From positions 1 to 50,008 of the forward strand of contig CANESI010000019.1 of the NCBI GenBank assembly GCA_947441065.1: a DNA stretch of 50,008 nt, in the 5' to 3' direction. Shown here one piece after another: positions 23,450-44,254 of the stretch. The notes beneath the pieces are model-generated. The model did no database searches and was not told the origin of the DNA. It saw only the letters and a program-made list of their open reading frames with translations. The position numbers and the translations under genes were made by a program. Source of the stretch: Caulobacteraceae bacterium. GTDB taxonomy: Bacteria; Pseudomonadota; Alphaproteobacteria; Caulobacterales; Caulobacteraceae. Each line of letters opens with the position of its first letter. The stretch's first letter is position 1.

Positions 23450-24739
23450 TTGGCCAACGTCACCGTGGTCGGCGCCCAGTGGGGCGACGAGGGTAAGGGC
23501 AAGATTGTCGATTGGCTGTCCAATCGCGCGGATGTCGTGGTTCGCTTTCAGGGCGGTCATAATGCCGGCCATACGCTGGTCGTCGGTAATGTGACCTATA
23601 AACTCTCCTTGCTGCCCTCGGGCGTGGTGCAGGGTAAGAAATCGATCATTGGCAATGGCGTCGTGGTTGACCCTTGGGCCTTTTTGGATGAGATCGCCCG
23701 GATCGGCGGCCAAGGAATTGTCATTGGCCCTGATCTTTTGGCCCTAGCCGATAATGCGGTCCTGATCTTGCCCCTTCACCGCGACCTTGATCAGGCGCGC
23801 GAAATCCAGGCGGGTGCGGCCAAGATCGGCACGACGGGCCGGGGCATTGGCCCGGCCTATGAAGATAAGGTCGGCCGCCGCGCCATTCGGGTTGCAGACC
23901 TGGCTGAGCCAGATTCCCTGCCGACCAAGATCGCGCGATTGCTTGCCCACCACGGTGCCTTGCGCCGTGGGCTCGACCTGCCTGAAGCCGATGCGGAGGC
24001 CCTGCTTAAGGCCCTGCTAGAGGTCGCCCCCAAGATACTGCCCTTTGCCCAGCCCACTTGGCGCCTGCTCGACCAAGCGGTCAAGGAGGGTAAGCGCGTG
24101 CTGTTTGAGGGCGCGCAGGGAGCCTTGCTTGATGTCGATCATGGGACCTATCCCTATGTGACCTCGTCTAACACGGTGGCGGGTCAGGCGGCAGCGGGAT
24201 CGGGTCTGGGGCCACGTTCGCCCGGATTTGTGCTGGGTATCGTTAAGGCCTACACCACCCGTGTGGGTGAGGGACCGTTCCCCACGGAGCTGTTCGATGA
24301 GCAGGGCCGCCAGCTCGGCGAGCGGGGTCATGAGTTTGGCACCGTTACCGGGCGTCCGCGCCGCTGTGGCTGGTTCGATGCGGTTCTGGTTCGTCAGTCC
24401 ATCGCTATCAATGGCATTCACGGCATCGCCTTGACCAAGCTCGACGTGCTCGACGGCTTTGAGACCCTCAAGGTCTGCGTCGGCTATCAGATTGGCGACA
24501 AGCTCTATGATTATCTCCCTGCGGGTATGGCCGCTCAGGCTGCCGCTGTTCCCGTCTATGAGACTTTGGAGGGCTGGAGTGACAGCACACGTGGCGCGCG
24601 CAGTTGGAAGGACCTTCCAGCAAATGCCGTGAAATATGTCCGCCGAATAGAAGAATTGATCGAGGCCCCCGTCGCTCTGCTGTCAACCAGCCCTGAGCGC
24701 GAAGACACAATCCTGATGAGAGACCCATTCCAAGACTAA
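23450..24739 (+). CDS. purA: Adenylosuccinate synthetase
   Basis: This enzyme joins IMP and aspartate with GTP, the first step from IMP to AMP. It has 429 residues. The start is a TTG at 23450, with AAGGA nine bases upstream, giving [18 protein letters not shown]. The GDEGKGK P-loop-like motif with D13, the [20 protein letters not shown] block and the [11 protein letters not shown] stretch are intact. It sits 52 bases after the PagL-like gene. I see no terminator before the next gene, but an AT-rich gap of about 95 bases separates them. Confidence 0.97.
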
Positions 24740-24833: not shown

Positions 24834-25712
24834 TTGGCTTACAAAGAACAGACTCCAGCACCTGCGCTCGCGAACCGCCTGAAGCGCGTATTGATCGTTG
24901 ATCCCAACCCCCTAGCGGTCAGCATCATGTCCGATCTCATTCAGCAGGTCGGTTCGGCCAGGGTTTTTAAGACGGATCGGACCGATTACGGCCTAGAAAT
25001 GGCGCGTGAGGTTAATCCTCATCTGGTCATTATCGAGTTCGCCGCACAGCAGTTCGAAGGCCTGAATTTCGTTCGGACAATCCGGCGAAGTACTATGCCC
25101 TGTCGTAAGGTGCCGATTGTTGTCACAACAGCAGCCTCCACACGTTTGGCAATTGACCATGCGCGTGATGCGGGGGTGCATGAATTCCTCGCCAAGCCCT
25201 TTACAGCGAATGACCTTTATCGACGTGTTGAGGCCGCCGTGCTTCAGGATCGCGATTGGGCGGAAAGTCCGGACTATGTGGGTCCTGACCGTCGGCGGTT
25301 TAATTCCGGTGCCTATCGCGGAAGATTGAAGCGCGAACATGACCAAGAGCCGCCGTCCATTCAGGAGCGGATGGGGGGCATCCTCAACCAGATGAAGACA
25401 ACGATTGAGCGGGTCGAGAGCGAGCCTGCGACCTCTGCGCGTGAACTTCTGCAGCTGGCCGAACAGCTCAGCGCCATCGGCCTTGAGATCCATGACTTTT
25501 CCATCGGTCAAGCGGCGTTTGAGCTGAAGACCTTCGTCCTGTCGTCCGTAAGGGCCGGTGGATTGACGAAGGCCAATATGCGCAAACATGCGGCCAATCT
25601 GATGACCGCGATGTCGGCCATGGCCAATGTCGGAACGTCGGTTAAGAACGCGGTCAGCAGCAGTTCTGGCCGAGAGAAGAGCCGGTCTGGTTCAATGGCT
25701 CATAGCCTTTAG
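24834..25712 (+). CDS. Degenerate response-regulator receiver protein with Arg-rich linker and helical C-terminal extension
   Basis: A 292-residue protein starting at TTG 24834, with GGAG seven bases upstream. Residues about 16-138 form a CheY-like receiver domain: VLIVDPN in place of the usual VDD, switch threonines T98/T99 and K121 in AKPFT. The phosphorylation position carries Glu (E68 in LVIIEFA) instead of Asp, so normal phosphorylation is not expected and a permanently active-like state is possible. Behind it comes an Arg-rich stretch with GPDRRR (150-155), then a mostly helical region rich in Leu/Ala (about 175-270) of unknown fold and a Ser/Arg tail. The GPDRR motif is shared with the third CheY of the chemotaxis operon. 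It converges on rpoH. Confidence 0.8.
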   Translation: MAYKEQTPAPALANRLKRVLIVDPNPLAVSIMSDLIQQVGSARVFKTDRTDYGLEMAREVNPHLVIIEFAAQQFEGLNFVRTIRRSTMPCRKVPIVVTTAASTRLAIDHARDAGVHEFLAKPFTANDLYRRVEAAVLQDRDWAESPDYVGPDRRRFNSGAYRGRLKREHDQEPPSIQERMGGILNQMKTTIERVESEPATSARELLQLAEQLSAIGLEIHDFSIGQAAFELKTFVLSSVRAGGLTKANMRKHAANLMTAMSAMANVGTSVKNAVSSSSGREKSRSGSMAHSL

Positions 25713-25723
25713 GCAAACCGCCG

Positions 25724-26617
25724 CTAATGGCTGTCGATCCGCTGTGCAGCAGCAGCGGCCATCATGGACTTTTGCAGCTTCTCAAAGGCGCGGACCTCGA
25801 TCTGGCGCACCCGTTCACGACTAACGCCATAGTGACTGGCCAGATCCTCAAGCGTCGTGGGATCGTCCTTGAGGCGGCGCTCGGTCAGGATGTGACGCTC
25901 ACGATCGGACAGTTCGGTCATGGCCGATTGCAGCAGGGTCGTGCGGATGCCGTGTTCTTCGCTATCGGCCAATTGAGTCTCTTGGCTCACCGCATTGTCG
26001 TCGGCCAGCCAGTCTTGCCACTCGCCATCACCATCGACCCGCAAGGGTGCGTTGAGGGACGCGTCTGGACCGGACATGCGCCGGTTCATCGAGATGACTT
26101 CCTCGTTTAGAACGCCCAGACGGGTGGCGATGTGGCTGACCTGTTCAGGGCGAAGGTCGCCCTCTTCAAAGGCGCTAATTTCCGACTTGGCCTTACGCAG
26201 GTTGAAGAACAGCTTCTTTTGCGCACCGGTCGTGCCCATCTTTACGAGCGACCAAGACCGCAGGATATATTCCTGGATCGAGGCGCGGATCCACCACATG
26301 GCATAGGTCGCCAAGCGAAAGCCGCGCTCAGGCTCGAACTTCTTGACCGCCTGCATCAGGCCGACATTGCCTTCGGAGATCACCTCGCCAATGGGCAGGC
26401 CATAGCCGCGATAGCCCATGGCGATCTTGGCCACGAGACGCAGATGTGACGTGACCAGACGATGGGCGGCATTGGGGTCTTCATGTTCGCGCCAACGCTT
26501 AGCCAGCATGAACTCTTCGTCCTTGGCCAACATAGGGAACTTGCGAATCTCAGTCAGATAGCGTGACAGGCCGCCATCGGGCGACATCACCGACAAGGAT
26601 TGAGCTGCAGTAGCCAT
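25724..26617 (-). CDS. rpoH: Heat-shock sigma factor RpoH (sigma-32)
   Basis: This sigma factor directs RNA polymerase to heat-shock promoters. It has 297 residues. Regions 1.2, 2 and 4 are all present. The RpoH box QKKLFFNLR lies at 133-141, which separates it from the other sigma-70 members. The region 2.4 stretch RLATYAMWWIRASIQEYILRS and the C-terminal helix-turn-helix (YGVSRERVRQIE) are intact. The ATG at 26617 has AGGGGA upstream. A long inverted repeat lies about 85-130 bases before the start, between rluD and rpoH. Confidence 0.97.
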   Translation of the reverse strand: MATAAQSLSVMSPDGGLSRYLTEIRKFPMLAKDEEFMLAKRWREHEDPNAAHRLVTSHLRLVAKIAMGYRGYGLPIGEVISEGNVGLMQAVKKFEPERGFRLATYAMWWIRASIQEYILRSWSLVKMGTTGAQKKLFFNLRKAKSEISAFEEGDLRPEQVSHIATRLGVLNEEVISMNRRMSGPDASLNAPLRVDGDGEWQDWLADDNAVSQETQLADSEEHGIRTTLLQSAMTELSDRERHILTERRLKDDPTTLEDLASHYGVSRERVRQIEVRAFEKLQKSMMAAAAAQRIDSH

Positions 26618-36440: not shown

Positions 36441-36731
36441 ATGACCGAACCTGCTTCCGCTTCGAGGCTGCAACTGACCGAAAATCTCGACCTCAAGGCT
36501 GCAGGCCCCCTGCGCTCTGAGCTCCTGACCCTTCGGCATACGCCTTTGGACCTCGATGCTTCGAATGTGCAGCGTCTCGGCGGGCTCTGTTTACAGGTCT
36601 TGATGTCCGCCCAAGCCACTTGGGCAGCAGATGCCATGCCCTTTGCCATTTCCTCACCCTCCCCAGCATTTCAAGAGGCCTTGAGCCTGTTTGGTGCCGA
36701 GGATCTTCAGCCGTTCGTTCAGCAGGGCTAG
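36441..36731 (+). CDS. Small STAS-domain protein at the head of the chemotaxis operon
   Basis: A 96-residue protein starting at the ATG at 36441, with AGAGGA upstream; the frame extends further but lacks a ribosome site. The LDLDASNVQRLGGLCLQVLMSA stretch is a STAS (anti-sigma antagonist-like) core, with Ser/Asn-Val around the position that is phosphorylated in SpoIIAA-type proteins. In Caulobacter the same position, just before cheY I, is held by a small gene named cheX, though it is unrelated to the CheX phosphatase of other bacteria as far as I can tell. The role in chemotaxis is unknown. The upstream gap probably contains the operon promoter, but no clear elements are visible. Confidence 0.78.
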   Translation: MTEPASASRLQLTENLDLKAAGPLRSELLTLRHTPLDLDASNVQRLGGLCLQVLMSAQATWAADAMPFAISSPSPAFQEALSLFGAEDLQPFVQQG

Positions 36732-36735
36732 TCCA

Positions 36736-37104
36736 TTGAGCAAGATCGTTTTGACCGTTGATGACTCCCGCACCATGCGCGACATGCTGATGCTGGCTCT
36801 GGGCGATGCTGGTTTCACCGTGGTGCAGGCTGTGGACGGGGTCCATGGTCTCGAGGTGCTGGAATCCATGGCCATGCCCGATGTGATCATCACCGATATC
36901 AATATGCCGCGTATGGATGGATTTGGCTTCATCGAAGGGGTGCGCAAGAGCGAACGCCATCGCGCAACCCCGATCTTGGTCCTGACCACCGAAAGCGACT
37001 CGGTAAAGAAAGAGCGCGCGCGCTCAGCCGGTGCCACTGGCTGGATCGTTAAGCCCTTTAACCCAGACAAGCTGATCGACGCCGTTCGCCGCGTCGCGGC
37101 CTGA
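36736..37104 (+). CDS. cheY: Chemotaxis response regulator CheY (first copy)
   Basis: A single receiver domain of 122 residues. The start is a TTG at 36736, four bases after the STAS gene, with AGGG upstream; the frame reads back into the STAS gene without a start. The full active site is present: D9/D10 in TVDDSR, phospho-acceptor D54 in ITDINMPRMDG, T84 in VLTTES and K106 in VKPFNP. As a canonical CheY directly before cheA it is the likely flagellar-motor or phosphate-sink regulator. Which of the three CheY copies acts on the motor cannot be told from the sequence. Confidence 0.94.
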   Translation: MSKIVLTVDDSRTMRDMLMLALGDAGFTVVQAVDGVHGLEVLESMAMPDVIITDINMPRMDGFGFIEGVRKSERHRATPILVLTTESDSVKKERARSAGATGWIVKPFNPDKLIDAVRRVAA

Positions 37105-37131
37105 CGCGCCCTGTAACCGGAGCAAACGCCC

Positions 37132-39399
37132 GTGGATCCGTTAGAAGCGATCAAGGTCACATTCTTCCAGGAATGCGAAGAACAGCTGTCCGAGCTCGAA
37201 TCGGGCCTCTTGGCCATGGAGCAGGGCGAGACCGACTCTGAGACGGTCAATGCCGTGTTCCGCGCCGTTCACTCGATCAAGGGCGGCGCTGGGGCCTTTA
37301 GTCTCGAGCCTCTGGTTCGCTTTGCTCATGTGTTTGAAACCACGCTGGACGATGTGAGGGCCGGTAAACTCGCACCGGATAATAATGTCGTTAAGGTCAT
37401 GCTGCGCGCCGCTGATGTGCTGGCCGACCATGTCCGCGCGGCCCGTGACGGCGGTGTGGTTGAAGAGGCGCGTTCGCAGGAACTGGCTGCGGCGCTCGAA
37501 GCCTTAAACGGTGCCGCAGCGCCGGCTTCAATCGTCAGCGAAGATTTTGACGATATGCCCGGCTTGGACTTTACCCCGCTGACCGTGTCGGATGATGACG
37601 GGTTTGGAGATGATTTCGGCTTTACGCCCTTGGCGGCGGGGATCATCGATCTTGAGCCCGAGGGCCCGGCCCTGCGCCGCTGGACGGTGCAACTGCGGCC
37701 CAAGAACGCGCTCTATGCCAAGGCCAATGAAACCGGCCTGCTGCTGCGGGAATTGAAGCGTCTTGGGGATATTGAGGTCTCGATCGACGGCTCCGAGCTT
37801 CCCGGCTTGGCCGAGTTGGAACCGGAGCACGCCTATCTGAGCTGGACGATTGTCCTGACCACGGATCGCAGCCAATCGGACATTCAAGAGGTCTTTGAGT
37901 TTGTCGATGGCGACTGCGACCTGACCATTACGGCAGATCAATTGACCAGTAGCCTCCCAATGATGGGTGAGGCGAGCATTGATGAGCCCTTTGATGTCAT
38001 GGCCCTGATTCAACAGGCCCGGGCCGATGTTCAGGCCGCGCCGGCAGCGGCTATCATGGCTGAGATCTTGGCCGCGCCAGCCCCGGCGCCGGTCTTTGCC
38101 GCCTCGGCACCGTCCGTTCCAGCGCCCGCAGCGGCGACGGCGACTGCTGCGGCAGGGGTGGCTCCGGACGCGGCCCATGGCGCAGCGGCCCAGCAGGCGA
38201 CCATTCGTGTGGATCTGGACCGGGTAGACCGACTGATCGATCTGGTCGGCGAGCTGGTCATCAATCAGGCCATGTTGGCCCAGCGCGTGACAGAGAGCGG
38301 CGTTCCGCGCTCTTCGAACATTGCCATGGGTCTTGATGATCTCGAACATCTGACCCGCGAGATCCAAGACAGTGTGATGGCCATCCGCGCCCAGCCGGTC
38401 AAATCGGTGTTCCAGCGCATGCCGCGTCTGGTCCGTGAAGTTGCGGCCATGACTGGCAAGCAGGTTCGCCTAGTGACGGAAGGCGAGGGCACCGAGGTTG
38501 ATAAGACCGTCATTGAGCGCCTGACCGACCCCATCACCCATATGATCCGCAATGCCATCGACCACGGGCTTGAGCGGCCTGAGGTTCGGGTAGCTGCGGG
38601 AAAGGGCCCTGAAGGCACAGTGCGTCTGTCGGCGGCCCATCGCAGCGGCCGGATCGTCATTGAAGTCTCCGATGACGGTAAGGGTATTGACCGGCCCCGC
38701 GTGCGCCAAATTGCCATTGATAAGGGCCTGATCGAGGTCGACTCCAACCTCAGTGATGAGGATGTCGACAACCTGATCTTCATGCCCGGCTTCTCGACCG
38801 CCTCTTCGGTGTCGGACATTTCAGGGCGCGGCGTCGGCATGGATGTGGTCAAGCGCTCCATTCAGGGGCTCGGCGGCCGGATCGCTATCACCTCGCGGCC
38901 CGGTCAAGGCTCGACCTTTACCTTGAGCCTACCCCTGACCCTTGCGGTCTTGGATGGCATGGTCGTGTCGGTTTGCGATCACACATTGGTTGCGCCCCTG
39001 ACCGCGATTATCGAAAGCCTGCAGCCTAAGGCTCAGGATGTGCGGGCCATAGGTCCGGACGCCTATGTCATTGCCATTCGCGACACCTATACCCCTCTGA
39101 TCGATGTCGGGGCGATGCTGGGCTATCGGACCACGCCGCTTGATCCGACCAAGGGTGTGGCCCTTTTGGTCGAAGGAGAGGGCGGCGCGCGGGCGGCCTT
39201 GATGGTCGACGCCATTCAGGGCCAGCGGCAGGTGGTGATCAAGTCACTCGAAGCCAATTACCGACAGGTCGAGGGCATTGCCGCCGCCACCATCCTTGGC
39301 GATGGACGCGTGGCCTTGATCTTGGATGTCGACAATGTGGTAGCCGCCCGGCGACGGGAAAAGGCCCGCAGTGACGCGAAGCTGGCAGCGGCAGGTTAG
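37132..39399 (+). CDS. cheA: Chemotaxis histidine kinase CheA
   Basis: This histidine kinase phosphorylates the CheY and CheB proteins in response to chemoreceptor signals. It has 755 residues. The GTG start at 37132 has CCGGAG upstream. The order is: HPt domain with the phosphorylated H47 in [11 protein letters not shown], a Val/Asp-rich P2-like region (about 180-290), an Ala/Pro linker (about 300-355), the dimerisation domain, the ATPase domain ([34 protein letters not shown]) and a CheW-like C-terminal domain. All catalytic boxes look intact. The cheA stop is directly followed by cheW. Confidence 0.97.
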
Positions 39400-39403
39400 G
39401 ACC

Positions 39404-39871
39404 ATGACCCCAATGACCACCTCCTCCAACAGTGCTGTTCGTGAGTTGATCTCGTTCCAGATCGGCGCGCAGGAATTTTGCGTCGACATCATGTCGGTGC
39501 GCGAGATCCGCGGCTGGACCCCGGCCACGCCCTTGCCCAGAACGCCCGTCTTTGTGCGCGGTGTGATCAATCTTCGCGGCGCGGTCCTGCCCATTGTTGA
39601 TCTGGGCTCGCGTCTGGGTCTGCAGATGACCGAACCGACTGAGCGGCACGTGATTATCGTGACCCGGATTGAAGAGCAGCTTGTTGGTCTCCTAGTCGAT
39701 GCGGTCTGCGACATCATCACGGTGCGCGACGACCAGATCCAGTCGACGCCAGATGTGGCCTCCGACCTCGTCCAACAGTTCGTCAAGGGCATCCTGTCGA
39801 TGGAAGGCCGGATGATCAGCCTGATCTATCTGGAGCGCGTCCTGCCCGACCGTGAAGCTGAAGCCGCATGA
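39404..39871 (+). CDS. cheW: Chemotaxis adaptor CheW
   Basis: This SH3-like adaptor links chemoreceptors to CheA. The protein has about 155 residues from the ATG at 39404; an ATG at 39413 is equally possible, and the frame reads back into cheA. The [24 protein letters not shown] start, the [14 protein letters not shown] core and the [12 protein letters not shown] end are typical. Its stop overlaps the cheR start by four bases (ATGA), so translation is coupled. Confidence 0.95.
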
Positions 39872-40764
39872 GTGATCAGGCAGACATTAAGCGGCCCGTC
39901 AGCGCTAGCAAAAACCTCGTAGAGGGGGAATATCCCTTTACCCAAGAGGATTTTCGCAACATCGCCGCCATGCTGCATGCCGATGCTGGGATTGCCCTGC
40001 CGGACTCCAAGGCGACCTTGGCCTATTCACGGCTTGCAAAACGTCTGCGCGCCTTGGGCCTGAAGACATTCAAAGACTATTGCGCGCTTGTCGCTAGCCA
40101 AGCCGGCGTGGAAGAGCGCCAAAAGATGCTGGCCTCGCTGACCACCAACGTCACAAGGTTCTTTCGTGAACCGCACCATTTCGAGCATCTGAAGACCAAG
40201 GTCTTGCCCGACCTGTTGGCGCAGGCCAAGCGCGGCGGACGGGTACGGATCTGGTCGGCGGGCTGTTCAGCCGGCCAAGAGCCCTATTCCATCGCCTTGA
40301 CCATCCTGTCGCTGCTGCCGGATGCCGGGCGCTATGACATCAAGATCTTGGCCTCGGACATCGATCCCAATGTGGTGGCAGAGGGCAAGGCGGGCTTCTA
40401 TGACGAGGAATCCTGCTCCGCTATTCCACGCGACCTGATGAAGCGCTGGTTCGTGCCCAATCCCGCTGACGCCTTCAAGCGTTGGGGCGTGGGCGACGCG
40501 GCGCGCGATCTGGTGACCTTCCGAGAGTTGAACCTGATGGGCCAGTGGCCAATGAAGGGTCCGTTCGACGTCATCTTCTGCCGCAATGTGGTGATCTATT
40601 TCGAAGAAGAGACCCAAGCTCGGATCTGGAGCCGCTATGCGCCGCTCTTGAGCCCTGGTGGGCGGCTCTATATCGGCCATTCTGAGCGGGTGTCTGGTCC
40701 TGCAACGACACTGTTTGAGACCGACGGTCTGACCACCTACCGGCTTGTGGGGGGTAAGGCTTGA
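39868..40764 (+). CDS. cheR: Chemoreceptor methyltransferase CheR
   Basis: This enzyme methylates glutamates of chemoreceptors using S-adenosylmethionine, opposing CheB. It has 298 residues. An N-terminal helical domain (about 30-95) with [14 protein letters not shown] leads into the SAM-binding [13 protein letters not shown] motif; [12 protein letters not shown] and [12 protein letters not shown] follow. The start overlaps the cheW stop (ATGA) and the stop overlaps the cheB TTG start (TTGA). Confidence 0.96.
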
Positions 40765-41801
40765 GCCCTGTCCGCGTCCTGATTGTCGACGATTCAGCCA
40801 CCATGCGGGGGCTGATCAAGGCTGTGCTGTCGCAAGACCCCGCCATCGAGGTGATCGGAACCGCGTCCGATCCGCTTGAGGCGCGCACCGCGATCAAGTC
40901 CCTCAATCCCGACGTCATTACCCTCGATATCGAAATGCCAAACATGAACGGTTTGGAATTTCTCGAAAAGATTATGCGCCTGCGCCCCATGCCGGTGATC
41001 ATGGTCTCGACCCTGACCCAACATGGCGCGGTAGCGACCCTCAAGGCCCTTGAAATTGGGGCCTTTGATTGTGTGGGCAAACCCATGAACGGGGTTGCGG
41101 CCAAGGAGGCCTTTGCCGAGCTGGCCGACAAGGTCAAGGCCGCCGCCCGCGCCAAGATGCGCGCCTTTAGTCAGGCGGTGGTCGCCAAGCCGCAGGCAGA
41201 CGCCTTCAAGTCCGATGGCCGGGTTTTGGCCATAGGGTCTTCGACCGGTGGTGTTGAGGCCCTGTTGGCGGTTCTGTCGCACTTTCCGGCCAATTGCCCA
41301 CCAACCGTGATCACCCAACATATGCCCGCTAGCTTTACGGCCAGCTTTGCCGAGCGGCTCAATCGCAGCTGCGCAGCCTCGGTCTGTGAAGCCAGCGAAG
41401 GCGCACCTCTCGAGATTGGCCAGATCTATCTGGCGCCTGGCGGGGCTCAGCATCTGGAGGTCAGCGGCCTTGGCCAACTGCGCTGCCGCCTCAAGCCTGC
41501 CGATCTGGTCAATGGCCACCGCCCATCGGTGGATGTGCTGTTTGAGTCTGTGGCGCGCACCGTCGGTGGTCAGTCGGTGGGTCTGATCTTGACCGGAATG
41601 GGCCGTGACGGCGCTAAGGGTCTTAAGATGATGCGCGACGCGGGGGCCTCCACCCTTGGTCAAGACGAATCGTCCAGCGTTGTCTACGGCATGCCGCGCG
41701 TGGCCTTTGAAATCGGTGCTGTAGAGCGTCAGGCGCCCTTGGAGCGCTTGGGTCCTATGGTGCTTAATCTTTGCAATCTAGACCGGCGGGAGAGGGCGTA
41801 A
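40761..41801 (+). CDS. cheB: Chemoreceptor methylesterase/deamidase CheB
   Basis: A receiver-controlled methylesterase that removes methyl groups from chemoreceptors. It has 346 residues and a TTG start overlapping the cheR stop. The receiver domain (1-120) has D10/D11, phospho-acceptor D56 in [12 protein letters not shown] and K108 in VGKPMN. The esterase domain has the catalytic S161 in IGSSTGG, H187 in ITQHMP and an Asp in TGMGRDGA. The S161-H187 spacing matches the enteric enzyme. The stop overlaps the start of the next cheY by one base (TAATG). Confidence 0.96.
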
Positions 41802-42190
41802 TGCCAGCGGCCTCGGGAATTTCTGTTCTCATCGTAGACGACCAAATGACCATGCGCGCCTTGGTGCGCAATGGCTTGCAGCAGCTTGGCTTCACCGAGT
41901 TTCGCGATGCGGTCGATGGTGAAGATGCCTTGCGGCAACTGATCTCACGCCCGAGTCAGCTCGTCATATCCGACTTCAACATGCCCAAGCTGGATGGACT
42001 GGCCCTGTTGCGCGCCATCCGTGGCCATCCACCGATTGCCAAGACCGCCTTCATCATGCTGACCGGCCGCGCAGACCGCGAGTTGGTGCAGCGCGCCGTG
42101 CAGTTCGGGGTCAATAACTATCTGGTTAAACCCTTCACGGTGACCATCCTGAAAGAAAAGATCGAAGCGGTCTTTGGGCCCCTCACATGA
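41801..42190 (+). CDS. cheY: Chemotaxis response regulator CheY (second copy)
   Basis: A 129-residue receiver domain. The ATG at 41801 overlaps the cheB stop (TAATG) and GGGAGAGGG lies upstream; the frame is open further back but only within cheB. The active site is complete: D23/D24 in IVDDQM, the phospho-Asp in ISDFNMPKLDG, T98 in MLTGRA and a Lys in VKPFT. It corresponds to cheY II of Caulobacter, between cheB and cheD. Confidence 0.94.
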   Translation: MPAASGISVLIVDDQMTMRALVRNGLQQLGFTEFRDAVDGEDALRQLISRPSQLVISDFNMPKLDGLALLRAIRGHPPIAKTAFIMLTGRADRELVQRAVQFGVNNYLVKPFTVTILKEKIEAVFGPLT

Positions 42191-42759
42191 GCCTTGTGTC
42201 ACGCGACCAGGAGCCCCTTGCACTGCCTGAACGACGTGTGCACGTGGTTCAGGGGGAGCACTATGTCACCGATGACCCCAGCGTCATGCTCACCACCATT
42301 CTCGGTTCCTGCGTTGCCGCCTGTATTCGTGATCCCTTGGCCGGTCTGGGCGGTATGAACCACTTCCTGCTGCCCGGTGGTGAGGGTGAAGATGTCACGA
42401 CTGACTCTGTGCGGTACGGGGCCTATGCCATGGAGGTCTTGGTCAATGGCCTGCTGCGGCAGGGCGCGCGGCGTGAGCGGCTTCAGGCCAAGCTCTTTGG
42501 CGGCGCCAGGGTCATCAGTGGCCTGACCGATATTGGCGATCAAAATGCCCGTTTTGCTGAGCGCTATCTGAAGCAGGAGGGAATCAGCTTTGCCGGCGGT
42601 AGCTTGGGCGGAGAGCGGGCCAGGCGGATTCAATATTGGCCCATTTCTGGGCGGGTTCGGCAGATGGCACTGGCCAAGGATGAGGCCAGTGTGTTTGAAA
42701 TCGAGCGGCGGACCAAGCCGTCTGCACCGGTCGAGTCCGGCGCGTTGGAGCTCTTTTGA
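42187..42759 (+). CDS. cheD: Chemoreceptor glutamine deamidase CheD
   Basis: This enzyme deamidates selected glutamines of chemoreceptors and may interact with CheC-type phosphatases. It has 190 residues. The catalytic cysteine C42 in LGSCVAACI and H59 in GGMNHFLLP are present. KLFGGARVISG follows, and a C-terminal extension to GALELF. The ATG overlaps the preceding cheY stop (ATGA), and the stop overlaps a TTG that could start cheU. Confidence 0.95.
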   Translation: MSLVSRDQEPLALPERRVHVVQGEHYVTDDPSVMLTTILGSCVAACIRDPLAGLGGMNHFLLPGGEGEDVTTDSVRYGAYAMEVLVNGLLRQGARRERLQAKLFGGARVISGLTDIGDQNARFAERYLKQEGISFAGGSLGGERARRIQYWPISGRVRQMALAKDEASVFEIERRTKPSAPVESGALELF

Positions 42760-42761
42760 TC

Positions 42762-43157
42762 ATGGAACCCTCAAGTCCAGTCCAGGCGCTCTGTTCCACG
42801 GATGGTCAGGTTCGCCTGTCTGAAGTGATCCAGACTGCGGCGCTTGAAGCCCGTGACCTTGCAGGCATGGGCAACCGGTTCCAAGGACTGGTGGCCGAAC
42901 TGATGGCGTCCTCCCAAGGTGCCCATAGTGCAGAGCGGATCGTTCAGGCCCAAGGCCTGGATTCCCTGATTCAGCGCCTATCGGCCCTTTCCTCCTTTCT
43001 CGAAGCCCTTGGTCCGGGCCTGCCGCCCGAATGGAAGGTCAATCCGGTCCAAGCCAGTCAACACCTAACCCTTGATCACTCCGTGCGCCGTTTTGGTCGC
43101 CGGGCTGAAGATCGTATTGCCGCGGCGATAAAGCCCGGCGATGTCGATCTTTTTTAG
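42762..43157 (+). CDS. cheU: CheU-like protein of unknown function
   Basis: A 131-residue acidic-to-neutral helical protein in the position of Caulobacter cheU, between cheD and the third cheY. I recognise it by position only; no motif gives a function. Predicted helices run through LSEVIQTAALEARDLAGMGNRFQGLVAELMA and the C-terminal segment, with a Pro-rich hinge (LGPGLPPEW). The ATG at 42762 lies 11 bases after a GGAG; the TTG at 42756, five bases after the same GGAG and overlapping the cheD stop (TTGA), is an equally good start. Confidence 0.7.
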   Translation: MEPSSPVQALCSTDGQVRLSEVIQTAALEARDLAGMGNRFQGLVAELMASSQGAHSAERIVQAQGLDSLIQRLSALSSFLEALGPGLPPEWKVNPVQASQHLTLDHSVRRFGRRAEDRIAAAIKPGDVDLF

Positions 43158-43166
43158 GGGTCAAAC

Positions 43167-43772
43167 ATGTCGCCTCCCCCCACCAACCCTAAGGCCAAGA
43201 TCAATCTCGAGCGGGCCACCGTTCTGTTGATGGAGGCCAGTCCCCAGGGCATGGATATTCTTGTCCAGGTGTTCAGTGGATTTGGCGTACGCACACCGCT
43301 TCGGGCCATGTCTGGGGCCTCTGCGATGGAGTTGGTCAAGAGCCATCTGCTAGACCTGATCATCGTCGACGCCCAGCTTTCAGACATGGAAGGCTATGAG
43401 TTCGTAAAGTGGCTGCGAACCTCGAAAATTGAACCAAACTGCGCCGCGCCGGTCATTTTCATGTCGGGCCACACCCAAGTGTCCAATGTGACCAAGGGGC
43501 GCGACTGCGGCGCAAGCTTCTTGGTTGCCAAGCCCATCGTGCCTCGCGTACTTTTGGATCGGGTGATCTGGGTGGCCCGCGAAAATCGGGTCTTTATCGA
43601 GTGCCCAACCTATTCTGGTCCTGACAGGCGTTTCAAATTTGTTGGTCCGCCTCCGGGCACCGAAGGGCGGCGCTCTGATGACCTTCCGTTAGAGGTGGGT
43701 ACGGCCAGCACGCCCAACATGTCGCAAGACGCCATCGACTCCTTGCTCCAGCCTCAGAAAGCACAGCTGTGA
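43167..43772 (+). CDS. CheY-like protein with Arg-rich C-terminal tail (third copy, Cle-like)
   Basis: A 201-residue protein from the ATG at 43167, with AGGGG upstream. The receiver domain (about 15-135) keeps phospho-acceptor D68 in IIVDAQLSDMEG, S100 and K122 in VAKPI. The metal-binding acidic pair is weak (E23 in LLMEAS instead of DD). After it comes an Arg-rich stretch: GPDRRF at 151-156 and GTEGRR at 164-169. In Caulobacter the third CheY of this cluster belongs to the Cle family, CheY-like proteins that bind c-di-GMP through an Arg-rich segment and act on the flagellar motor (from memory). A similar role here is an inference. The stop overlaps the cheE GTG. Confidence 0.82.
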   Translation: MSPPPTNPKAKINLERATVLLMEASPQGMDILVQVFSGFGVRTPLRAMSGASAMELVKSHLLDLIIVDAQLSDMEGYEFVKWLRTSKIEPNCAAPVIFMSGHTQVSNVTKGRDCGASFLVAKPIVPRVLLDRVIWVARENRVFIECPTYSGPDRRFKFVGPPPGTEGRRSDDLPLEVGTASTPNMSQDAIDSLLQPQKAQL

Positions 43773-44254
43773 CGGTAACAAGACGCCGATTTGAAAACCG
43801 GCTTTCCAAATTGATCAAGCTTCCCGGCGGCAAGACCGTTCAGGAGGCGATGGACGATGCCGACAGCAATATGGAATCCATCCGCGATAAGGTCCTCAGC
43901 GCGATGGACAAAAAGGTCCTCCAGCTTCTGGACAGTGCTGCCTCGGTCACGGCAGACCCCAATCGTGAGGCCCTGACCAATTGCTATAATGTCGCCAACG
44001 AAATCTTTGCCCTCGCCGGTGCCTTTGGTAAGGAGCAGATGGGCGACGCGGCCTACAGCCTGTGCGAACTGATCGATCGGTCGCTTGAGGCGGGCAAGTG
44101 GAGTGACCCTGCCTTTCAAGCCCATATGAACGCGCTTCGGCTGATGCGCCATGATGAGACTGAAGAGGGCCAAGAGGCCCGCAAGGTCGTCTTGACGGGG
44201 CTAAGAAGCGTTATTGATGCGGTGACCGGGCCTGCTGCGTCTAAGGCGCGTTAA
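43769..44254 (+). CDS. cheE: CheE-like protein of unknown function
   Basis: A 161-residue, mostly helical protein in the position of cheE, last in the chemotaxis operon. It starts at a GTG (43769) that overlaps the preceding stop codon (GTGA). The N-terminus is basic (RRRFENRLSKLIKLPGGK); helices follow, with AYSLCELIDRSLEAGKWSDPAFQAHMNALRLM in the second half. No catalytic motif is recognisable. Its conserved place in the operon suggests a role in chemotaxis adaptation or CheY turnover, unproven here. It converges with hisI, 15 bases away, and I see no terminator. Confidence 0.72.
   Translation: MTVTRRRFENRLSKLIKLPGGKTVQEAMDDADSNMESIRDKVLSAMDKKVLQLLDSAASVTADPNREALTNCYNVANEIFALAGAFGKEQMGDAAYSLCELIDRSLEAGKWSDPAFQAHMNALRLMRHDETEEGQEARKVVLTGLRSVIDAVTGPAASKAR

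Follow-up and report, generated by a model that had tools for sequence, protein, structure and literature searches.

We analysed a window of 50,008 nucleotides, the whole stretch of DNA under study, from Caulobacteraceae bacterium (assembly GCA_947441065.1, contig CANESI010000019.1, forward strand). It holds the gene of a receiver-domain protein with purA and rpoH as neighbours. The features of this locus are as follows, with the evidence in brackets.

23450..24739, + strand: purA, upstream neighbour in the conserved locus (NCBIfam, synteny)
24834..25712, + strand: cleD orthologue, 292 aa, TTG start (ORF call, Pfam, PDB match 6SFT, CleD clade)
24888..25229, + strand: CheY-like receiver domain, residues 19-132, with D23/P24, E68, T99, R111 and K121 (Pfam PF00072, AlphaFold2, Foldseek)
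25035..25037, + strand: codon of E68, the position of CheY D57 and of E70 in C. crescentus CleD
25245..25346, + strand: putative c-di-GMP-binding Arg-rich module, residues 138-171, YVGPDRR at 148, YRGRLKR at 161, flanks R140/D170 (6SFT match, motif scan, conservation)
25359..25625, + strand: predicted C-terminal four-helix bundle spanning residues 176-264, perhaps HPt-like, without a conserved phospho-His (AlphaFold2, Foldseek, VIA-align, hhalign with CheE)
25626..25709, + strand: C-terminal end, predicted disordered, residues 265-292 (pLDDT <50)
25724..26617, - strand: rpoH, convergent downstream neighbour (NCBIfam, synteny)

Receiver domain, Arg-rich module and orthology

The one Pfam domain of the protein is PF00072 (Response_reg), which covers residues 19-132 with E 6e-16. 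Together with the top Foldseek matches, CheY3 and DivK, it indicates that the CheY receiver fold is present. The fold is shared with CheY of Vibrio cholerae and Escherichia coli, and CheY3 (4hns) was the top match with E 5.1e-8. CheY itself is phosphorylated on an Asp and is not known to have an Arg-rich module or a tail. We take D12, D13, D57, T87 and K109 of CheY to correspond to D23, P24, E68, T99 and K121 of the window protein. The alignment with CheY bore out an earlier reading made from the letters alone (the sequence-only reading), according to which the Lys (K121) and the switch Thr (T99) are kept and a Glu (E68) stands at the phosphorylation site. As that reading also stated, the metal pocket retains a single acidic residue (D23); the neighbouring position is P24.

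We studied the conservation of these positions in the best 80 of 342 orthologues, taken from titled genome records that were mostly Phenylobacterium, Caulobacter, Brevundimonas and unclassified Caulobacteraceae. Since the 80 loci were selected by the patterns Y[VI]GP[DE]RRRF and HEFL[RAV]KP[FY], residues 148-156 and 116-123, among them K121, owe part of their conservation to this choice. Neither pattern covers P24, E68, T99, R111, R140, W142, K166, R167 or D170. Among these best 80 of 342 the E68 position was Glu in 77 (S, C or D in the remaining three) and the P24 position Pro in 76, T99 was found in all 80 and K121, inside a selecting pattern, in 77. The helix-4 Arg, R111 in the window protein, was an Arg in 79/80, and R140, W142, K166, R167 and D170 were each present in 80/80. 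In an alignment of the window protein with 19 relatives that a search with its full length had returned, the phosphosite was Glu in 18 of the 20 rows and Asp in two. We had looked for a majority of Asp at this position and for loss of the Arg-rich tail in homologues; Glu prevailed in both sets and the Arg-rich stretch was kept. As the features named in the first reading are conserved across orthologues, they are no chance occurrence, and the Glu at the phosphosite is a trait common to CleD.

The GPDRRR Arg-rich stretch noted earlier behind the receiver is indeed there and runs from R140 to D170, with YVGPDRR at 148. The module reads R140...YVGPDRRRFNSGAYRGRLKREHD170. In a PDB sequence search with phmmer the part behind the receiver matched 6SFT, the CleD Arg-rich peptide, at E 5.8e-7 (whole protein: 7.2e-7). 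The first repeat is exact, and the second, YRGRLKR at 161, has R instead of P; a strict scan for the repeat pattern found the first repeat only. The flanks R140 and D170 are both present. Position 164 was P in 57 and R in 3 of the best 80 of 342 orthologues, and in the 20-row alignment the other rows with R at the second-repeat position (L009, L010 and L011) all belong to the window's genus. The R164 in place of Pro suggests that c-di-GMP binding may be weaker. The window peptide is identical to 6SFT at 19/31 positions, below most CleD rows. The AlphaFold2 confidence was low in the module, with pLDDT 61 and 55 for residues 151-170.

In a tree of receiver-plus-module sequences the window protein fell into a clade of 31 of the 68 rows with 100/100 support; matches with an internal stop, matches of <120 aa and duplicates were dropped from this tree, and the bootstrap was not settled. 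The clade includes two Caulobacter sp. loci (L101, L128) identical to the 6SFT peptide at 29/31 positions. Identities within the clade were 19-29/31, except for L012 (16), L022 (8) and L027 (7), where the stretches of L022 and L027 end before the module; outside the clade they were at most 16/31. The placement and the 6SFT-like members of the clade thus identify the window gene as a cleD orthologue of a diverged lineage. The protein shows the traits of the CleD subgroup, namely the Glu at the phosphosite, the purA/rpoH locus and the CleD clade. With CleD of C. crescentus (CC3100), compared via the 6SFT peptide and the published description, it shares the order of receiver, Arg-rich module and C-terminal region, the Glu and the helix-4 Arg. 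The two differ in the second repeat (YKGPRKR in CC3100, YRGRLKR in the window) and in length, with 269 aa in the constructs described in passages of PMC5677366 compared to 292 aa. The window protein is CleD, a described family, and neither the protein nor the CheY-like c-di-GMP switch is new. Apart from the idea on the tail set out below it is ordinary, one more CleD from a small-genome (2.9 Mb) Caulobacteraceae lineage.

The locus is conserved as well. Within flanks of at most 5 kb of the 80 titled loci we found purA upstream in 77, rpoH downstream in 55 and both in 53, at distances of up to ~3.5 and ~4.6 kb, respectively; several of the flanks end early. In the window both genes adjoin cleD, whereas in several Caulobacter sp. 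loci they lie 1.3-4.4 kb away. The rpoH gene (NCBIfam TIGR02392) is convergent with cleD, as reported before, with 11 bases separating both ORFs. We also observed loci (L020 and G014:C16:362300-364316) with CleA-like, CheE-like and CleD-like genes in a row; unlike the usual place of cleD, their 1.5 kb flanks gave no purA or rpoH match.

The helical tail, CheE and the C-terminal end of CleA

The first reading had described a helical tail of about 120 residues and proposed a structure prediction. The region comprises residues 171-292 (122 aa), and the prediction yielded a four-helix bundle. In the AlphaFold2 model of the whole protein (alignment n=81) the predicted helices span residues 176-192, 198-218, 222-241 and 246-264, with pLDDT 86-95 at residues 181-250 and 74 at 251-260. 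The whole-model pTM was 0.54, and the packing of receiver, module and bundle against each other is not fixed by the model. Modelled by itself (97 residues, 74 sequences), the tail reached a mean pLDDT of 87.8 and a pTM of 0.81. The tail alignment held 74 of 81 tails, L112, L124 and L140-L144 having been thinned out by hand, and the identity of the window tail to rows outside its genus was 14-28%.

Foldseek gave no match to the tail model at E 0.001; its best rows, with E of at least 0.27, included a number of HPt domains alongside designed four-helix bundles. Foldseek's 350 best chains were rescored with VIA-align, where the designed bundle 3u3b (Z 12.7) and 1tqg, CheA P1 of Thermotoga maritima (Z 12.4), came out on top and other designed bundles, HPt domains, FliS and p130Cas had Z values of ~10 to 12; according to the warning of the tool, helical bundles may reach Z ~13 by their common arrangement. 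The best natural match, 1tqg, superposed with an rmsd of 2.9 over 97 residues. Both 3u3b and 2lch are redesigned from a CheA P1 bundle. The profile search of the C-terminal domain that had also been proposed returned scattered weak matches from Pfam, and Hpt was not among the 25 of 40 Pfam families listed for the 74 CleD tails. The column matching the phospho-His held V in 21, E in 15, A in 11 and T in 10 of the 74 rows, besides other residues, with no His among those listed. Since no conserved His occurs there, the tail is not a usual phosphotransfer domain.

Several other comparisons of the tail were rejected. A direct profile comparison with CheA P1, made to test the tail as HPt, was not significant, with P 0.3 and 0.32 for the reversed control. 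BLASTP of the window tail against CheE gave E 1.3 in a different register. A PDB search with the tail profile returned repetitive designed proteins (7rdr, E 1.9e-8) by summing weak repeats, with no single significant stretch.

The sequence-only reading had placed the gene away from any kinase. This holds for the immediate neighbours but not for the window as a whole, in which cheA (37132-39399) lies ~11.4 kb off. The chemotaxis cluster with this cheA also encodes a second Cle protein:

36691-44254: che1-type chemotaxis cluster with receiver ORF, cheA, cheW, cheR, cheB, cheY, cheD, cheU-like ORF, cleA and cheE (by best NCBIfam match, in several cases short of the curated cut-off)
43167..43772, + strand: CleA-like protein, second Cle of the window
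43722..43748, + strand: SQDAIDSLL, a peptide like the FliM N-terminus, at the C-terminal end of the CleA-like protein
43769..44254, + strand: cheE-like gene for an HPt-like protein, proposed relative of the CleD tail

The names of the cheU-like ORF and of cheE (43769-44254) are our assumption from their positions in the cluster. Like CleD, both CleA (CC0440) and the window's CleA-like protein combine a receiver with an Arg-rich module. The latter differs from CleD in the Asp at its phosphosite, in a FliM-like peptide in place of the helical tail, in its location in the che cluster and in its separate clade. The phosphosite Asp of C. crescentus CleA is D67 (passages of PMC5677366).

The C-terminal end of the CleA-like protein reads PNMSQDAIDSLLQPQKAQL. 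FliM of the same genome has ILNQEEIDNLLG near its N-terminus, the CheY-docking motif, which passages of PMC5677366 quote as LSQxEIDxLL; the motif was found in five of six FliM loci, and the sixth (L043) was read in the wrong frame or from the wrong start. Judged by its letters, the CleA peptide clearly resembles this docking motif. Across the 24 of 25 loci listed, SQxx[IV]Dx[LMI][LMI] occurred in 7/15 CleA-type rows (L148-L162, window included) and a looser Q-x-x-I-D form in three more (L153, L154 and L156), while five of the 15 were without the peptide; it was found in none of the nine other Cle rows listed. The peptide might serve as a decoy or as an autoinhibitory plug. The searched main-text passages of PMC5677366 contain no mention of a FliM-like end of CleA.

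A CleA-type gene lies directly upstream in 22 of 24 cheE-like loci, the exceptions being L061 and L062. We aligned 19 of the 24 CheE matches, omitting the near-identical L046, L047 and L048 and the rowless L060 and L067. In the PDB the CheE profile matched 6ff6 best, a repeat protein made by design (E 4.5e-14, over two stretches), and CheA rows came next; of the CheA P1 structures, 1i5n was matched at E 5.1e-8. With hhalign, CheE and CheA P1 of relatives gave 96.3% and E 1.6e-9 (reversed control: P 0.25), and Pfam Hpt was matched weakly by five of the 19 CheE members (best E 3e-4). The matches to CheA P1 indicate that CheE is HPt-like. Its phospho-His column held N in 12/19 and H in 1/19, and the next column H in 1/19.

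For the CleD tail and CheE hhalign reported a probability of 20-23% and P 0.0009-0.0011 over 85-86 columns in register. The score was 25.6; none of 60 block shuffles went beyond 15.5, and the reversed profiles scored 12.9 and 11.3. When the window's genus was left out, the score was 20.6 (P 0.0076) on the CleD side and 25.4 on the CheE side. The tail, which has no conserved phospho-His, may weakly resemble CheE by profile and may resemble CheA P1 by its predicted model. We consider a distant relationship between the tail and CheE likely but unproven.

What is new here is a hypothesis on the CleD tail, CheE and the CleA end, and we put it forward tentatively, with more doubt than confidence. 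CleD might be a fusion of a c-di-GMP-gated CheY with a CheE-type pseudo-HPt, while the che1 operon encodes the corresponding pair, CleA and CheE, separately. The pseudo-HPt might bind receivers or CheA without phosphate, so that under high c-di-GMP CheY might be recruited to the motor, retained there or titrated by CleD and CleA-CheE, with the CleA peptide as a built-in decoy for CheY-type proteins or as an autoinhibitory plug that c-di-GMP releases. In the searched passages of PMC5677366, PMC7534056, PMC11481889 and PMC10579534 neither CheE nor the CleD tail is described as HPt-like, nor CleA as having a FliM-like end. In passages of the 2017 paper a role of the CleD C-terminal region is suggested and left open (PMC5677366), and in passages of a 2023 paper CheE is among the genes that 'have been hardly described' (PMC10579534). 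If the tail were a CheE-related pseudo-HPt, this would provide a structural hypothesis for both.

Cle genes and the flagellar motor

We surveyed genomes of at least 90% completeness with the window CleD as query and counted matches at E 1e-15 or better, so that the count stands for any Cle and not for CleD alone. Among the matches listed, Cle was found in 106 and FliM in 106 of the 119 Caulobacteraceae: 104 had both, 11 had neither, two had FliM without Cle (G005, G076) and two had Cle without FliM (G009, G057). Fisher's exact test of the co-occurrence gave p 5.6e-12, a value that ignores the relatedness of the genomes. Ten of the 11 double losses fell into genus g30 and the eleventh into g6, and this clustering suggests few independent events. 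We can see that Cle genes accompany the flagellar motor in the Caulobacteraceae. The window genome itself has one FliG match, seven flagellin matches and six GGDEF matches that pass the Pfam cut-off.

G005 belongs to the window's genus and is 97% complete; it has FliM and no Cle at E 1e-15 among the matches listed, which suggests that the protein is dispensable there. Judged from this genome, cleD seems to have been lost within the window's genus. G005 also keeps an adjacent CleA-CheE pair besides FliM. G009 and G057, of one genus, gave no FliM or FliG match and have kept Cle and flagellin matches, one flagellin match of this genus having an internal stop. In G009 the reading frame of cleD shifts inside the tail. 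This resembles decay following motor loss and fits a motor function; the G057 match, an open frame of 263 aa among the matches listed, argues against this. For this genus, with which L026 was noted, it looks like a motor loss in progress.

Proposed mechanism and competing explanations

Published experiments on CleD of C. crescentus answer the question of regulation raised by the sequence-only reading. According to passages of PMC5677366, this protein binds c-di-GMP via the Arg-rich stretch, where R156 and R169 matter and R113 of helix 4 helps, its E70A variant is fully functional, and the c-di-GMP-loaded form binds the N-terminal motif of FliM, and the C ring; further CleD experiments are described in passages of PMC7534056. 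With an offset of two residues, R156, R169, R113 and E70 correspond to R154, R167, R111 and E68 in the window, and all are kept. A phosphorylation-independent regulator responsive to a nucleotide messenger, as had been suggested, has thus been demonstrated for the C. crescentus orthologue (passages of PMC5677366), and the kept binding residues argue for the same in the window copy. From these residues and the genome's own FliM, FliG, flagellins and GGDEF proteins we infer that the window copy works like its C. crescentus counterpart. We are highly confident that it is CleD, probably acting as a c-di-GMP-gated regulator of the flagellar motor, with a tail that is perhaps HPt-like.

The receiver would then no longer be a phosphorylation switch. 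As c-di-GMP rises, a c-di-GMP dimer would settle on the Arg-rich module with R111 of helix 4 assisting, and binding would probably reshape the protein. The window CleD would then dock and act at the flagellar motor like C. crescentus CleD. The four-helix tail, which might be a degenerate HPt-like domain with kinship to CheE, may raise the affinity for c-di-GMP or bring a partner.

There are several other possible explanations. CleD of the window's genus might act without strong c-di-GMP binding, being constitutive or driven by its tail. The rarity of R164 (3/80 compared to P in 57/80, best of 342), its restriction among the other rows of the 20-row alignment to the same genus and the lack of a Cle match at E 1e-15 among those listed for G005 would fit such a change. 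However, the checked Arg and Lys positions and the flanking Arg and Asp are all kept in the window protein, and the second repeat of C. crescentus, YKGPRKR, is likewise without the consensus acidic residue, so that we regard this explanation as unlikely. Still less probable is a response regulator phosphorylated by an unlinked kinase, with the Glu or another residue in the role of the Asp. Its switch Thr and Lys would be in place (T99 80/80 and K121, part of a selecting pattern, 77/80, best of 342), but the acceptor Asp is missing and the second acid of the metal pocket is Pro in 76/80 (best of 342). Based on E68, P24 and the functional E70A variant of C. crescentus CleD (passages of PMC5677366) we rejected this kinase-coupled reading.

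The protein might also regulate a process other than motility, for example heat shock via the neighbouring rpoH. The purA/rpoH neighbourhood of cleD is stable and the genus of G009 and G057 keeps its Cle genes without FliM, which would suit such a role. On the other hand, rpoH is convergent with cleD, and the decay-like frame shift in the G009 tail is what a motor function would lead us to expect. We therefore consider a role outside the motor highly improbable and favour the c-di-GMP-gated motor regulator: Cle and FliM agree in 115 of the 119 Caulobacteraceae among the matches listed, and FliM is the published binding partner of C. crescentus CleD (passages of PMC5677366).
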